NCBI GenBank assembly: GCA_029819875.1
Contig: JALGVG010000002.1
Coordinates: 1-33,096 of the forward strand
Length of the DNA: 33,096 nucleotides
DNA from: Candidatus Zipacnadia bacterium
GTDB lineage: Bacteria > Armatimonadota > Zipacnadia > Zipacnadales > Zipacnadaceae
Direction: 5' to 3'
Shown one piece after another: positions 18,628-33,070 of the stretch. Below the pieces are notes generated by a model. It was not told where the DNA came from and ran no database searches. It worked only from the letters and a program-made list of their open reading frames with translations. Within the stretch, counting starts at the first letter, position 1; each line of letters begins with the position of its first letter. Both the position numbers and the translations under genes were made by a program.

Positions 18628-19840
18628 ATAGCACCATGCTCCCGAAGATGGTAAACAAGAGAACGCAAAGCGCCAGCGCCCTGCCGTTGGCGCGGACACG
18701 TGACCACAGGGTAGCCGGCACGTCGGCCTCTGCGACCAGGGGCACGGTGCGGGTGGCGCCCGTGGGCAGGGTGAACTTGAGGGTCGCCACCACCTGTCCG
18801 CGGTGGACGGGAGCGCTGACCTGCGGCGGCTGGAGGGTCTCGGTGACGTGCAACTGGTCGGCCGGCAGTACAACCGTCACAGAGCGCGCGGCCGCGGCCA
18901 GCACGTGACGGTGCGTGCCGTGCTTTACGGCCACGGGGCGCAGCGATGCCCCCTTGACAGCCAGATGCAACGGCCGGAAGTTGTCAAACGCCCACTGCAG
19001 CAGGTTGCGGCTGTCATCGGAGATGGCGCGGCTGTTCATCACGACACACAGAAGCTGCCAGCCATCGCGCGTGGCGGAGGCGGCGATGCAATTGCCGGCC
19101 TGGCGCGTGTAGCCGGTCTTGATGCCATCGCACTCCTCCCAGCGGTGCAGCAGGCGGGTGCGGTTGACCAGGAGGCGGTCGTACGGCTTGCCGGGCCACG
19201 GCAGGGTCAAGCGCCTGGTAGCCACAATCCGCCGCAGCAGGGGATGTTGCAGGCACTTGCGGGCTATTGTGGCCATGTCGGCGGCACTGCTGTAGTGGCG
19301 CGGGTCATGCAGGCCATGGGGATTGACGAAGTGACTGTCGGCCAGGCCCAGGCGCGCGGCTTCCTCGTTCATCATCCTGGCAAATGCCGGCACCGAGCCT
19401 GCCACGTGGATGGCCAGCGCCACGGCGGCGTCATTGGCCGAGGCGATCAAGGCCCCTTCCAGCAGGTGGCGGACCGTTATCTGCTCGCCGGCCTGCAGGT
19501 TCATGGTCGTCTCGCCGACAGCGGCGGCGCGGGGCGAGACGGTGACAAGTTCGTCAGCATCGGCGGAGTTGACGACGACCAAGGCGGTAAGCATCTTGGT
19601 CAGGCTGGCCGGGTAGACCTTAGCGTGAGGGCGCAAGGAACACAGCACCGTGCCGGTCTCGACATCCATGAGCACGGCGGCGCGGCCGGCGATGCGCGGC
19701 GGCGGAACGCGGCCCATAAAAAAGGTAAGAGAGTGCTGCGGCGCGGCGCAGGCCGGCGGTTCAGTTGCGCCGAAGCAGTCGGCCGTCCACATTAGCAGCA
19801 GGATGGCAGCGAGGGTGGCTACTGGTCTGAAGCTGCGGAT
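18536..19840 (-). CDS. D-alanyl-D-alanine carboxypeptidase (DacA/PBP5-like)
   Basis: SLTKMLTAL (SxxK), SANDAAVALA (SxN), KTGYTRQAGN (KTG), C-terminal TM. First ATG is at 19792; the signal peptide needs a start near 19840 (ATC). Confidence 0.88.
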   Translation of the reverse strand: MRSFRPVATLAAILLLMWTADCFGATEPPACAAPQHSLTFFMGRVPPPRIAGRAAVLMDVETGTVLCSLRPHAKVYPASLTKMLTALVVVNSADADELVTVSPRAAAVGETTMNLQAGEQITVRHLLEGALIASANDAAVALAIHVAGSVPAFARMMNEEAARLGLADSHFVNPHGLHDPRHYSSAADMATIARKCLQHPLLRRIVATRRLTLPWPGKPYDRLLVNRTRLLHRWEECDGIKTGYTRQAGNCIAASATRDGWQLLCVVMNSRAISDDSRNLLQWAFDNFRPLHLAVKGASLRPVAVKHGTHRHVLAAAARSVTVVLPADQLHVTETLQPPQVSAPVHRGQVVATLKFTLPTGATRTVPLVAEADVPATLWSRVRANGRALALCVLLFTIFGSMVLYGAAAKAVGTSRRRFPPRQRRAYPARPRHR

Positions 19841-20448
19841 GGTTCCTCACCTGTGTCAGCGATGGATTCAGCGGTCGTTGTGCCGCCGGTGTCGGCTACG
19901 GGAAGCGCCATGGTAGCTGCGGTCTGCTGAAATTGCTCCAACAGCGGCAGATCATCGAGGCTGCCGAGGCCGAAGACGGCCAGAAAGTGCTCGGTGGTCT
20001 CCAGCAAGAAGGGGCGCCCGGGGGCGTCCTTGCGGCCTGCGATGCGGATAAGGTTCTTTTCCAGGAGGCTGTTGATGATGCCCGCGGAGTTGACCCCGCG
20101 CAGTTCGTCAATCTCCGGGCGGGTGATGGGCTGGCGGTAGGCAATAATGGCCAGCGTTTCAAGGGCCTGGGTTGAGAGGCGTTGCGGCTCAGGCTCCAAC
20201 AGCGCCTGGACGTAGTCGGCATACTGGGGGCGGGTGGCGAGGGTATAGCCGTTCGCCAGCCTGGTGAGCTGGACACCGTGGCCTACCAGCTTCTGTTCCA
20301 GGCGCTGCGCCAGCTCGGCGACCTGCTCGGTGCTGCAGCCCAGGATAGCGGCAATCCTGTCGCCGGGGAGGGGCTGGCTTGCGACAAACAGCAAGGCCTC
20401 CAGGGCGGCGACGAGAAGTTGTGCTTGTTGTTCTGTCAGCGAGTCCAT
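19819..20448 (-). CDS. scpB: Segregation and condensation protein B
   Basis: LVAALEALLFVASQPL, QALETLAIIAYRQPITRPEIDELRGVNSAGIINSLLEKNLIRIAGRKDAPGRPFLLETTEHFLAVFGL. Confidence 0.95.
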   Translation of the reverse strand: MDSLTEQQAQLLVAALEALLFVASQPLPGDRIAAILGCSTEQVAELAQRLEQKLVGHGVQLTRLANGYTLATRPQYADYVQALLEPEPQRLSTQALETLAIIAYRQPITRPEIDELRGVNSAGIINSLLEKNLIRIAGRKDAPGRPFLLETTEHFLAVFGLGSLDDLPLLEQFQQTAATMALPVADTGGTTTAESIADTGEEPSAASDQ

Positions 20449-20463
20449 GGCGTCCTTGTAGTC

Positions 20464-21258
20464 TTAAGTCTGTTGGTCAGCCAATTTAACCATGAGATTG
20501 CGGGCGGCGGAGTCCAGGTAGATGCGGATGCGGCCTTGGCGTATCAGTTCCAGCACGGCCAGGAAAGTGACAATGATGTGAAGCCTGCTGGTGGGCACGT
20601 CCACCAGGTCGCGGAAGTGAAGCGGCGTGTTCGGCTCGGCGGCGAGGCGGAAGATGATCTCTTCCACGCGCTGGGAGACGGTGACGGTCACGGGTGCCAG
20701 GCGGGCGGGGCGCGGGGGCTGGGCGCGTTGCAGCATCTCCTTGACGGCGCCTATCAAGTCAAAGACGGAGACCTCGTTCAGCGGCACGAAGCCGCGCACT
20801 ATCTCGTCGGCCTTGCCGGCCGGTCGCAGGAAGATACGCTGGCGGGCACGCCGTGATTCGTCCAGTAACTGGGCGGCTTCCTTGTAGACCTTGTACTCGG
20901 CCAGGCGGCGCTTCAATTCAGCCTCGGTGTCGCCGAGTTCCTCCTGCTCGTCTTCGTCGTCGGCCTCGGAGGCGGGCAGCAGGGCGCGGGACTTAAGCAG
21001 CAGCAAGGTGGCGGCCATCACCAGGAACTCGCCGGCCACTTCGATGTTGACGGCCTGCATGGTGTGAAGATACTCCAGGTACTGGTCGGTGATGGAGGCT
21101 ATCTGCACCTGGTGGATGTCCACCTGCTGGCAGCGCACCAGGTGCAGCAATAGGTCCAGCGGCCCTTCGAAGATGGTAATCTTCACCGGGTAGCCGCTGA
21201 ACCCCTCGGCCTGGGCAGGGTCTGTAGCGGTTGGTAGCCGGGTATTCGTTGTAATCAC
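20464..21258 (-). CDS. scpA: Segregation and condensation protein A
   Basis: ITIFEGPLDLLLHLVRCQQVDIHQVQIASITDQYLEYL...EVAGEFLVMAATLLLLKSRALLP. GTG start at 21258 overlaps the preceding stop (GTGA). Confidence 0.94.
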   Translation of the reverse strand: MITTNTRLPTATDPAQAEGFSGYPVKITIFEGPLDLLLHLVRCQQVDIHQVQIASITDQYLEYLHTMQAVNIEVAGEFLVMAATLLLLKSRALLPASEADDEDEQEELGDTEAELKRRLAEYKVYKEAAQLLDESRRARQRIFLRPAGKADEIVRGFVPLNEVSVFDLIGAVKEMLQRAQPPRPARLAPVTVTVSQRVEEIIFRLAAEPNTPLHFRDLVDVPTSRLHIIVTFLAVLELIRQGRIRIYLDSAARNLMVKLADQQT

Positions 21259-22703
21259 TCGATCTGCAACTGCACCTGTGATTTGGCCAGCAACTTGCCT
21301 GCGGACCTTGCATATATTGTGACAGTATACGGCCCGGATTTCAAGTCGGGCAGCTCGATGTCGAGGATGGCATGGGCGGCCCGCAGCTTGCCCACCTGCC
21401 CCCTCCACCGGGGCTTTGCGCCGGCGGGCGCGAGGCTGACAGTCCACTTGAGGCTCTGCAGCCACTGCAGCTCGGCATTGATGGCCAGCGGAACCCGGAT
21501 GAAGTTGCGGCCGCCGAGGTTGACGAGCCGCGGTCGGCCCGGCTGCAGCAAGGGCGGCAGTTCATACGGCAGCGAAAAACTCATCAGCGTGCGGGGGCGG
21601 GAGGCGGCGATGCTCTCCAGCACCCAAATGCCCATGGAGTATTCCCACGGCATCCACCAGGTGGGCAGGTGGGTCCACTGCCGCGGCCCCCTGACCTTGA
21701 TGGCGACACGCCCGGTGCCGGGGGCTTGCAGCGTCACCGGCACGGTGCGGACGCTGGTGCCCCCCGACAGGGAGGTGGTGATGGTGGTGCCGGTGCCGGC
21801 GGCGAGGGGCTGGGGCTGGGTGGTAATCCAGATTTTGCCCGAGGGGCTGGTGAAGGTCAACTTGATATTGTTCTTGCCCCATAGGGGCCGGGGGAAGTCA
21901 AGGCCTGTGAGCACGAGCTTGCTGCGCCCCATCATCACCCACCCGAAGCTGCCGGCCGCAACCCAGGAGCTGATGCCCTCGCCGTCGCCGGCCGCGCGAT
22001 GGCGCAAGAAGTTTATGCCCCACACGCCGCCGGGCCGGGCGCCCAGTTGCTTGAAGCCGATTTCGATCTCGGCACTCCAGAAGCCGTCGCCGATCTGCAC
22101 GGCACCGATCCAGGCCGGATCCCAGGCTGCGGGGTCGGCAGGGGCGGCCGGCCGCTTGGTGCGCGCATCCCACTGCCCGCCGCGGCAGTTGAGGCGCAGT
22201 TCGAAGTAGCCGTCGCGGCCCAGGTTGTTGGCCGGCTCGAACTGCACGGCGACGTAGTCATCGGCGCTGATGTCGCGGTCCAGCTCGCCGCGGCGGCCGA
22301 CCAGGGCATCAACCTGCGGTTCCTCGCAGCGGAAGGCCAGGTAGATGCTGTTCTTGTCCCATGCCATCCACACCTGGGTCTGGCAGCGGGGCTTGCCGCC
22401 ATCGGGCAGCACAAAGCCGGAAGCGGCGGCCTGGGCCTGCCACGGCTTGTCACCGAGGTGCCCGTCTATGACCGGGGCCACCTCGGTGGGCGGGCAGTTG
22501 AAAAAGGGCGGGGCAGGGCCCGGCTGGGGCTGCGGTGCGTCCAGGTCATACGACACGTCAACGTACAGGCCCTGCGGTTTCTCCTGGCGCGCGCGGGCCT
22601 GGGTGGCGCCGGCCCCACCGGGGCCGGGCCAAGGTATCTGCCCGTGGGCTATGCCACAGGCGGCAATGGCAAGGCAAATTGCAAGGATTGTACGTGCCCT
22701 CAT
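21255..22703 (-). CDS. Secreted protein with CBM9-like domain
   Basis: N-terminal signal MRARTILAICLAIAACGIAHG; PVIDGHLGDKPWQAQAAASGFVLPDGG...TQVWMAWDKNSIYLAFRCEEP...DDYVAVQFEP pattern of CBM9-like modules. Confidence 0.7.
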   Translation of the reverse strand: MRARTILAICLAIAACGIAHGQIPWPGPGGAGATQARARQEKPQGLYVDVSYDLDAPQPQPGPAPPFFNCPPTEVAPVIDGHLGDKPWQAQAAASGFVLPDGGKPRCQTQVWMAWDKNSIYLAFRCEEPQVDALVGRRGELDRDISADDYVAVQFEPANNLGRDGYFELRLNCRGGQWDARTKRPAAPADPAAWDPAWIGAVQIGDGFWSAEIEIGFKQLGARPGGVWGINFLRHRAAGDGEGISSWVAAGSFGWVMMGRSKLVLTGLDFPRPLWGKNNIKLTFTSPSGKIWITTQPQPLAAGTGTTITTSLSGGTSVRTVPVTLQAPGTGRVAIKVRGPRQWTHLPTWWMPWEYSMGIWVLESIAASRPRTLMSFSLPYELPPLLQPGRPRLVNLGGRNFIRVPLAINAELQWLQSLKWTVSLAPAGAKPRWRGQVGKLRAAHAILDIELPDLKSGPYTVTIYARSAGKLLAKSQVQLQIE

Positions 22704-29807: not shown

Positions 29808-29838
29808 TTTTCCACGTTGTGGATAACATTGTGGAAAA
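29808..29838. promoter_or_regulatory. DnaA-box cluster upstream of dnaA (candidate oriC sub-region)
   Basis: TTTTCCACG (29808-29816), TGTGGATAA (29818-29826, perfect TTATCCACA on minus), TGTGGAAAA (29830-29838). Confidence 0.8.
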
Positions 29839-30237: not shown

Positions 30238-31614
30238 GTGTTGCACATGCCTAACCGCGGCGAAGCTCTTTGCAAGCAGTTATGGAAGACAGCATTGCCT
30301 TTGCTTGCCGAACGAGTTGGACCCGTCACCTATGACGGCTTTCTGCGCAACGTGAAGGCCTTAAGCTATGACGGCGAGACATTCGTGCTGGAGGTGCCCA
30401 ACCAGTTTGCCAAGGCATGGCTGGAGGAGCACCACAGTGGTGTCATCGGTGCGGCGCTGGCGGAGTTGCTGCAGCGCGATGAGCCTGTGCGGCTGGACCT
30501 GCGCGTATCAGACAGGCAACCGGAGCCGGCGCCGCCGCAACTGTTGGAAGCAACGCCGCCGGCGGCTGAGACGGCCGGCGGTAATAGGATGTTGAACCCC
30601 AAGTATACCTTCGAGCAGTTCGTAGTGGCTGACTGCAATCGCTTTGCGCACGCCGCGGCTGTGCAAGTGGCCAAGTCGCCGGGAAAGAGCTACAACCCGC
30701 TGTTTATCCACTCCAAGGTCGGCCTGGGCAAGACGCACCTGATGCAGGCGATAGGTCACATGGTCTGCAAGCTGTACCCGTCGGCGCGGGTGGTGTACAT
30801 CTCGGCGGAGGATTTCGTCAACGAGCTGATTACTTCCATCCGGGACAATCGCACCGAGGCGTTTCGCCGCAAGTACCGCACGGTGGACGTGTGGCTTGTA
30901 GATGACATCCAGTTCATCGCGGCCATCGAGGGGCCTGTTTCAGAGGAGGCGTTTTTCCACACCTTCAACACGCTTTACCAAAATGACAAGCAGGTGGTGA
31001 TTGCGTCCGACTGTCCGCCGCGGCACCTGCAGCTAATCAACGAACGGCTGCGCAGCCGCCTGGAGATGGGGATCGTGGCCGACCTGCGGCATCCGGACGT
31101 GGAGACGCGCATAGCAATCCTGGAAAAGAAGGTGCAGACCGAGGAGGTCAGCATTCCGCGGGAAATCCTGGAGCTGATAGCCAAGGAGGTCGAGTCCAAT
31201 ATCCGGGTGCTCGAAGGGGCACTGTTGAACGTGTGCGCCTACGCGTCGCTGAACAATGTGGAACTGACCCCGGAGCTGGTAAAGGAGATAATTGCGCCGT
31301 ACAAGGGCAGCTCGGACCAGCACCGGGTGACGCTTGAAGAGATCGTGGATTACGTCAGCAAGCAGATGGCATGCTCCAAGGAGGATATCTTGGGGCCCAA
31401 GCGCAGCAAGGAGATCGTGTGGCCGCGGCAGGTGGCGATGTACCTGAGCAGGGAGCTTACGGACAATTCGCTGGCCGAGATCGGGCGCTTTTTCGGCAAC
31501 CGCGACCATACGACGGTAATGCACGCATACGAGAAGGTAAGTAACCTGGTGGCGACCGACGAGAAGACCTTGTGGCTGGTGAACGACATGAAGTCAGCGC
31601 TGCAGGGCAGCTAG
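30238..31614 (+). CDS. dnaA: Chromosomal replication initiator protein DnaA
   Basis: NPKYTFEQFVVADCNRFAHAAA, VGLGKTHLMQAIGH, VWLVDDIQF, C-terminal SLAEIGRFFGNRDHTTVMHAYEKV signature; followed by dnaN. Confidence 0.96.
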   Translation: MLHMPNRGEALCKQLWKTALPLLAERVGPVTYDGFLRNVKALSYDGETFVLEVPNQFAKAWLEEHHSGVIGAALAELLQRDEPVRLDLRVSDRQPEPAPPQLLEATPPAAETAGGNRMLNPKYTFEQFVVADCNRFAHAAAVQVAKSPGKSYNPLFIHSKVGLGKTHLMQAIGHMVCKLYPSARVVYISAEDFVNELITSIRDNRTEAFRRKYRTVDVWLVDDIQFIAAIEGPVSEEAFFHTFNTLYQNDKQVVIASDCPPRHLQLINERLRSRLEMGIVADLRHPDVETRIAILEKKVQTEEVSIPREILELIAKEVESNIRVLEGALLNVCAYASLNNVELTPELVKEIIAPYKGSSDQHRVTLEEIVDYVSKQMACSKEDILGPKRSKEIVWPRQVAMYLSRELTDNSLAEIGRFFGNRDHTTVMHAYEKVSNLVATDEKTLWLVNDMKSALQGS

Positions 31615-31622
31615 GGTCGGCC

Positions 31623-31858
31623 CGTGAATAAGCGGGGCAAATCTTGTGAAGGATTTGTGCAAAGCGACCGGACGGGGCGGGGTGGGGGATGATGTGGATA
31701 ATTTCAGCCGGTTGTTAAGAAGTTTATCCACAGCCAAGATGCCCACCGGTTGGACACTGAGGCGGCTTTTCCACCCTTTACACGGCCCTATTATTACTAT
31801 TACTATAGTGTATAGATATGCCGTCTTTTCGAAGTAGGGGCCGGGGTGTTGTGGAAAA
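31623..31858. promoter_or_regulatory. Probable oriC: DnaA boxes plus DnaA-trio-like element between dnaA and dnaN
   Basis: CGTGAATAA 31623-31631; TGTGGATAA 31693-31701; TTATCCACA 31724-31732; TTTTCCACC 31767-31775; CTA TTA TTA CTA TTA CTA 31788-31805; TGTGGAAAA 31850-31858. Confidence 0.85.
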
Positions 31859-31942: not shown

Positions 31943-33070
31943 ATGCTTAGCGTTGTGTGCCAGCAGTCGGACCTGTACGAGATGGTGCAGATAGTAGGCC
32001 GCGGGGTAACCGGGCGCAGCAGCTTGCCGGTGCTGAATAACATCTACTTGGAGGCGGGGGATGATTCACTGCGCCTGCTGTCAACGGACATGGAGTATCT
32101 TACCATTGACGGCAAGATCGATGCGCAAGTAGAGGAAGAGGGAGCGATAACCATTGGCGCCCGCATCCTGGGGGAGGTGGCCGGAGCGCTGGGGGAGGGT
32201 GATGTGCACCTGGAAACGCAGACCTCGGAGGGGGGGCAGGCCAATGCCGTGAGAATCAGCAGCGGCGTGGCCAGCTACAGCATCAATGCCCTGCCCGCGG
32301 ATGAGTTCCCGGTGCCACCCTCTGTAGAGGAGGGGACGGCGCTGTCGATCCCCCAAAACCTGCTGCGGGAGGTAATACAGCAGACGGTGTTTGCGGCCTC
32401 GGCGGACGAGACGCGTCCGATTCTGACCGGGGCGCTGTTCAGCATCAAGCCCGAGGGGCTGGAGGTGGTGGCTACCGACACCTATCGGCTGGTGCTGCGC
32501 AAGGTGGAGCTTGAGACCGGCATTGCCCAGCCTTGCCAGGCGATAGTGTCGGCGCGGGCGTTGAACGAGCTGGCGCGCGTGCTCAGTCCCGTATCAGACG
32601 AGGCGGTTGAGGTGATATTGTCCGAGCGGCAGATTGAGTTCAGGCTGCCGGATCTGAAACTCGGCTCCCGGCTTATCGAGGGCGAATTTCCCAAGTACGA
32701 GAAAGTCATTCCCACCAGCCACGAGAAGGAGATTCTGTGCGAGGTCAGCGAGCTGCAGACGGCATTGAGGCGCGTGCTGATAGTGGCGCGCGATGACGCC
32801 AACAGGGTTGTGTTCCGGGGCAAGCAGTCGCAGTTGCAGCTCAGCGCCAAGAGCAGCGACGTGGGAGAGGCGGGTGAAACGATTGGCGCCGAGCTGCAAG
32901 GCGACGACATAGAGATCGCCTTCAATGCCCGGTATATCCTGGAAATGCTTGGGGTCTGCCCCAGCGAGCGTGTCGTCATACGGCTTAGCGGGCCGCTTAA
33001 TCCGGGGATAATCGTGCCCGATGGGCGCGACGATTACATCTACGTAGTGATGCCGATGCAGATCATGTAG
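31943..33070 (+). CDS. dnaN: DNA polymerase III beta subunit (sliding clamp)
   Basis: 375 aa; GRSSLPVLNNIYLEA, DETRPILTGALFSI, VATDTYRLVLRKVEL, LIEGEFPKYEKVIP, C-terminal MPMQIM. SD GGGAGG upstream. Confidence 0.96.
   Translation: MLSVVCQQSDLYEMVQIVGRGVTGRSSLPVLNNIYLEAGDDSLRLLSTDMEYLTIDGKIDAQVEEEGAITIGARILGEVAGALGEGDVHLETQTSEGGQANAVRISSGVASYSINALPADEFPVPPSVEEGTALSIPQNLLREVIQQTVFAASADETRPILTGALFSIKPEGLEVVATDTYRLVLRKVELETGIAQPCQAIVSARALNELARVLSPVSDEAVEVILSERQIEFRLPDLKLGSRLIEGEFPKYEKVIPTSHEKEILCEVSELQTALRRVLIVARDDANRVVFRGKQSQLQLSAKSSDVGEAGETIGAELQGDDIEIAFNARYILEMLGVCPSERVVIRLSGPLNPGIIVPDGRDDYIYVVMPMQIM

Follow-up and report, generated by a model that had tools for sequence, protein, structure and literature searches.

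According to the published rule for the basal unwinding system (BUS), tandem DnaA-boxes, the better one upstream, are followed after 10–13 bp by at least three NAN triplets, the DnaA-trios (PMC8287927). The better box has no more than two mismatches and is often followed in tandem by a second, less well conserved one (no more than four mismatches). The triplets are 3'-NAN-5', in most cases 3'-GAT, on the strand that is read leading away from the box. In Bacillus subtilis DnaA, Arg202 and Glu228 touch the guanine of the trio and Asn187 the adenine; cells with alanine in place of Glu228 grow very poorly, and converting all six trios to 3'-AA impairs the origin (PMC10721633). An origin candidate of this kind was found between dnaA and dnaN in a 2.56-Mb MAG of Candidatus Zipacnadia (WS1, Armatimonadota), with WS1 MAGs and Candidatus Zipacnadia as the nearest named relatives. 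Positions 31767–31805 of the window, the whole stretch of 33,096 nucleotides analyzed here, were considered to be a genuine BUS of the chromosome origin with a probability of about 0.85. The core is the known BUS design, extended to an uncultured lineage, and an opposed DnaA-box on the far side of the predicted bubble is apparently the new part.

Gene Context and Core Elements

The gene dnaA (30238–31614, + strand, 458 aa) was identified by NCBIfam TIGR00362 (496.8 bits), Pfam and alignment to 8btg chain A and to relatives, and dnaN (31943–33070, + strand, 375 aa) by NCBIfam TIGR00663 (288.9 bits) and Pfam; on these matches, both genes flanking the BUS are genuine. The contig ends shortly 3' of dnaN, leaving the right flank outside the window. 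The contig is unlikely to be a chimera joined between dnaA and the alcohol dehydrogenase gene, the neighbors being identical in the sister genome. The chromosome condensation genes scpB and scpA (19819–21465) lie on the opposite strand, ~9 kb from dnaA.

The window contains eight copies of the motif TTWTCCACM, where 0.34 would be expected by chance. An inverted DnaA-box pair was located 5' of dnaA (29818–29838, − strand; TTATCCACA at 29818–29826 and TTTTCCACA at 29830–29838), and the sister genome has a comparable pair ahead of its dnaA. The motif scan placed two further copies of TTATCCACA between the genes, one inverted (31693–31701, − strand) and one on the + strand (31724–31732), the latter at a position shared with the sister genome. 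The initial annotation had given TTATCCACA at 31724–31732, TTTTCCACC at 31767–31775 and the triplets at 31788–31805, all exactly, and had overlooked the inverted boxes at 31693–31701, 31850–31858 and 29818–29838.

The distal box of the tandem pair, TTTTCCACC (31767–31775, + strand), was recovered by the motif scan, is kept across the order and differs from TTATCCACA by two mismatches. It is directly followed by a degenerate proximal box, CTTTACACG (31776–31784, + strand; four mismatches), in register with the TCCACG boxes of relatives. The stretch CTTTACACGGCC (31776–31787), previously taken as the spacer and correctly positioned, thus contains a missed box, and since this box lies beside TTTTCCACC the two form a tandem pair, which leaves GCC (31785–31787, + strand) as the actual spacer, as seen in both sequence and alignment. 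The better box is separated from the first trio by 12 bp (31776–31787). The six trios, CTA-TTA-TTA-CTA-TTA-CTA on the + strand (31788–31805), read 3'-GAT AAT AAT GAT AAT GAT-5' on the bottom strand, three GAT and three AAT, in a conserved phase. They run into an AT-rich stretch, TATAGTGTATAGATATG (31806–31822), as had been noted, which is predicted to be the bubble extension. The proposed DnaA-trio and BUS identity between dnaA and dnaN was supported, spacing and polarity matching the published rule (PMC8287927).

Runs of at least four consecutive YTA triplets were expected 0.00 times in shuffles, and the only one in the window is at 31788–31805. Throughout the 2.56-Mb MAG, five consecutive YTA triplets were found in just two other places, both reading as coding tyrosine runs with no adjoining DnaA-box. 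These runs (YYYYYYDYYYYY-like; L206 660–697 and L207 582–620, in G000:C119 and G000:C129), which mimic trios at the DNA level, lie at the end of or within two genes, in surroundings that we take to resemble a bacterial tyrosine-kinase tail.

Conservation among Relatives

The proposed check was whether relatives keep the boxes, the spacer and the phase of the triplets; they do so across the order, and the flanks were not conserved. In an alignment anchored on the trio start, comprising the window and its relatives in the order and class (22 sequences in all), mean information content was 1.46 bits per column for the trios, 1.11 for the tandem boxes and spacer, and 0.25–0.37 for the flanks. The triplet phase was kept in relatives whose DnaA proteins are 56–72% identical, as well as in loci fetched later, and the same block was found in other families of the order and class, including genomes in which dnaA and dnaN are separated. 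This separation was seen in families f2 and f3 (genus g6), where the BUS remains about 110–545 bp 5' of dnaN (L211–L215, L219, L222); the block is therefore no by-product of the end of dnaA.

The Far-Side Inverted Box

An inverted DnaA-box, TTTTCCACA (31850–31858, − strand), lies 44 bp past the trio block, and a box is found at a fixed spacing in relatives. When 31 loci were scored for their best inverted box over a span of 77 bp, the result was 250, compared with 209 ± 3.8 for base-composition shuffles; boxes in forward orientation in the same loci gave no signal (200 vs. 208). Nine later loci, fetched for another purpose, scored 75 against 44 ± 3.25 at 32–36 bp past the trio block, a value reached in 0 of 5000 shuffles, with no signal at other offsets. 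The p-values for the far side overstate independence because the sequences share ancestry. Other lineages, represented by 25 BUS loci, gave no far-side signal (167 vs. 166.9 ± 3.1). In a tally of 35 loci, with values entered by hand from both box scans and loci without a clear box left out, the box lies 33–34 bp past the 18-nt block in 24 and 42–44 bp past it in five, including the genus of the window. The second class is about one helical turn beyond the first.

Two trio-like triplets, CTA-CTT (31832–31837, − strand), lie 12 nt from the far-side box of the window and are weak evidence on their own. Trio-like GTA/GGA triplets beside the far-side box are abundant in f5 (15 vs. 2.5 expected, 0 of 2000 shuffles), and outside f5 the excess is modest (p about 0.0015). 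In the later loci, the p-value was 0.007 with a pattern picked after seeing the data and 0.12 with an unbiased one. Overall, as a sequence feature the opposed box on the far side has good support. No description of it was found in the papers covered by the search, mainly open-access ones.

By homology to B. subtilis, DnaA would dock on the tandem boxes TTTTCCACC-CTTTACACG, and its AAA+ domains would polymerize rightwards on the bottom strand, with one protomer per triplet (3'-GAT/AAT-5'). Opening of the DNA would then start at 31788 and spread through the AT-rich stretch. An oppositely facing DnaA most likely docks on the far-side inverted box, which bounds the bubble and may seed a top-strand platform for the second helicase. 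Because this opposed box keeps a fixed place across the bubble and can be mutated, it offers a concrete handle for testing how the two copying machines load.

DnaA Residue 228 and the First Trio Base

Among the ssDNA-binding residues of DnaA domain III, the equivalents of Asn187, Ile190, Ile193 and Arg202 are present in the window and that of Glu228 is alanine. Alignments to 8btg chain A and to relatives place Ala238 (codon 30949–30951) at this position, and a phylum-wide pattern search returned alanine here only for the two members of this genus among 49 matches. The 3'-AAT trios account for three of six in the window and, in the sister genome, for four of seven, the other genera of the family being nearly pure 3'-GAT. 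A-rich trios also occur in two unrelated lineages that lack Glu228 and have a recognizable BUS: one is an Oscillospirales genome with Ala at this position, the other a Dehalococcoidia genome with Val. The mean fraction of A at the first base was 0.09 (maximum 0.40) in 27 lineages with Glu228 and ranged from 0.54 to 0.71 in the three without it. The corresponding one-sided Mann–Whitney test gave p = 0.001, on a hand-curated lineage table that omits weak BUS calls (e.g., Patescibacteria with Lys202 and mixed trios) and for an idea that came, post hoc, from two of the three non-Glu lineages.

Most lineages without Glu228 yielded no detectable BUS, among them most Dehalococcoidia with Gly, Ser or Cys at this position; Dehalococcoidia with Ala (L043, L045) showed a weak BUS only, and G925 (Ala), with no boxes beside dnaA, was uninformative. 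A search for the Glu228-to-Ala pattern in 399 genomes of the Oscillospirales phylum returned nothing beyond the known case. The co-variation of Glu228 loss with 3'-AAT enrichment, read from sequence comparison, is a lead and not a result. Both features would fit an altered first-base pocket, making trio specificity testable by a one-residue and triplet swap. As separate observations, the Glu228 position is unusually variable in Dehalococcoidia L158–L187 (A, G, V, S, C, K, N, E), where canonical trios near dnaA were mostly not found. Relative to B. subtilis DnaA, the whole order carries two extra residues in the loop that precedes the Glu228 region (window 30919–30942; L002–L031), and the essential Lys222 of B. 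subtilis DnaA is replaced throughout it (L002–L031).

Another variant replaces CTA by GTA in unchanged register, giving 3'-CAT-5' trios, in every f5 locus with a BUS found and in two of three f2 genomes (L024, L029, L030, L126–L128, L131, L209, L211 and L212). In f5, 3'-CAT is also found beside the far-side inverted box, that is, on both sides of the bubble. The DnaA tree groups f2 with f5 (support 87/93), and their DnaA proteins retain Arg202 and Glu228; repeat slippage could homogenize the triplet array with DnaA unchanged. Reading GTAGTAGTAGGAGTAGTAA of f5 as canonical trios on the opposite strand that DnaA would engage from the far-side box was rejected and 3'-CAT in the original register preferred, because that box is ~34 bp away, past the published 16-bp limit, and because lineages with CTA (g2, G020) have the same-frame GGA fourth triplet too. 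An inversion of the f5 interior was likewise disfavored, the long array remaining on the left. The 3'-CAT trio type is regarded as a lead.

GC Skew and Alternative Explanations

If leading strands are G-rich, a change in the sign of the skew is expected at the origin. The initial annotation had predicted a skew minimum here, a prediction that this contig did not bear out: the third-codon-position skew of the + strand is uniformly positive, at +0.23 for + genes and +0.24 for − genes (dnaA +0.18, dnaN +0.19). This positive GC3 skew on both gene strands extends over 1001–33070 and is opposite in sign to that of the alcohol dehydrogenase gene and dnaA of G001. In this sister genome of the same genus, with identical gene order, the skew flips at the BUS (alcohol dehydrogenase −0.30, dnaA −0.19, dnaN +0.12). 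A flip was also found within about 10 kb in G005 and loosely near the site in G024, with no clear pattern in G002 and G026. Contigs sampled from the MAG of the window mostly showed weak skew and were given no weight, the gene calls behind these values having handled the window badly. The skew of the window points to an inversion, a relocated origin or an unusual strand bias; as the contig stops just past dnaN, inversion, relocation and noise would look alike.

The uniform GC3 skew, the lost Glu228 equivalent and the presence of only two far-side trio-like triplets count against reading the site as the BUS of the origin, and the relatives that support this reading are not independent of one another. 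One alternative is that the BUS was inherited and the active origin has moved, so that the site would be a relic or serve DnaA autoregulation or titration, with forks crossing from the left. This would agree with a third-position skew that stays positive for genes of either strand throughout the 33 kb, including orthologues with negative skew in the sister genome. However, six unbroken triplets and intact boxes stand between genes where little else is conserved, the same skew would follow if the flank had recently been inverted, and the right side is unseen as the contig ends after dnaN; a moved origin was judged improbable. Equally doubtful is the proposal that the block or its far-side box mainly regulates dnaN, as a DnaA-controlled promoter, and not unwinding. 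Promoter regulation by DnaA-boxes is common, and the block remains upstream of dnaN even with dnaA gone, but a promoter does not need in-phase triplets adjoining tandem boxes, and the distance from BUS to dnaN varies between about 110 and 530 bp while that from box to box is fixed.

That the triplets are a chance low-complexity repeat can be virtually dismissed: YTA runs do exist in the tyrosine-rich coding sequence of this genome, but none was expected in shuffles, the site is non-coding and conservation of the phase in relatives disfavors such an origin. Beyond the reading of the site as a genuine BUS, a tentative extension, less probable than not being so, is that the origins of the order are convergent double BUSs. 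Two DnaA docking sites turned towards each other across one bubble, at a fixed helical phase, would seed filaments on opposite strands and help load both helicases, with the first trio base depending on lineage (3'-GAT mostly; 3'-AAT-enriched without Glu228; 3'-CAT in f5 and part of f2).

Comparison with Known Systems

The BUS of B. subtilis oriC (DnaA-boxes 6/7; PMC6669920, PMC8287927, PMC10721633) shares with the Zipacnadia locus the tandem co-oriented boxes, the short GC-rich spacer, six trios of equal phase and polarity, the location between dnaA and dnaN, and the box clusters upstream of dnaA. In contrast to B. subtilis, the Zipacnadia proximal box is more degenerate, the Glu228 equivalent is missing, 3'-AAT trios are more numerous, and an inverted box stands at a fixed spacing across the bubble. 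The opposed boxes of Escherichia coli are understood to lie all on one side of the unwinding element, whereas the opposed box of Zipacnadia sits across it. Both origins nevertheless combine DnaA-boxes of opposite orientation, arranged in E. coli oriC as paired left and right DnaA-oligomerization regions (PMC10316083). The oriC of Thermotoga maritima also involves an inverted DnaA-box, together with TAG-type triplets in the unwinding element (PMC10316083). Its box recognition sequence is unlike that of Zipacnadia, and its inverted box is part of the cluster itself, with the next box only a few bp away, whereas that of Zipacnadia lies across the bubble.
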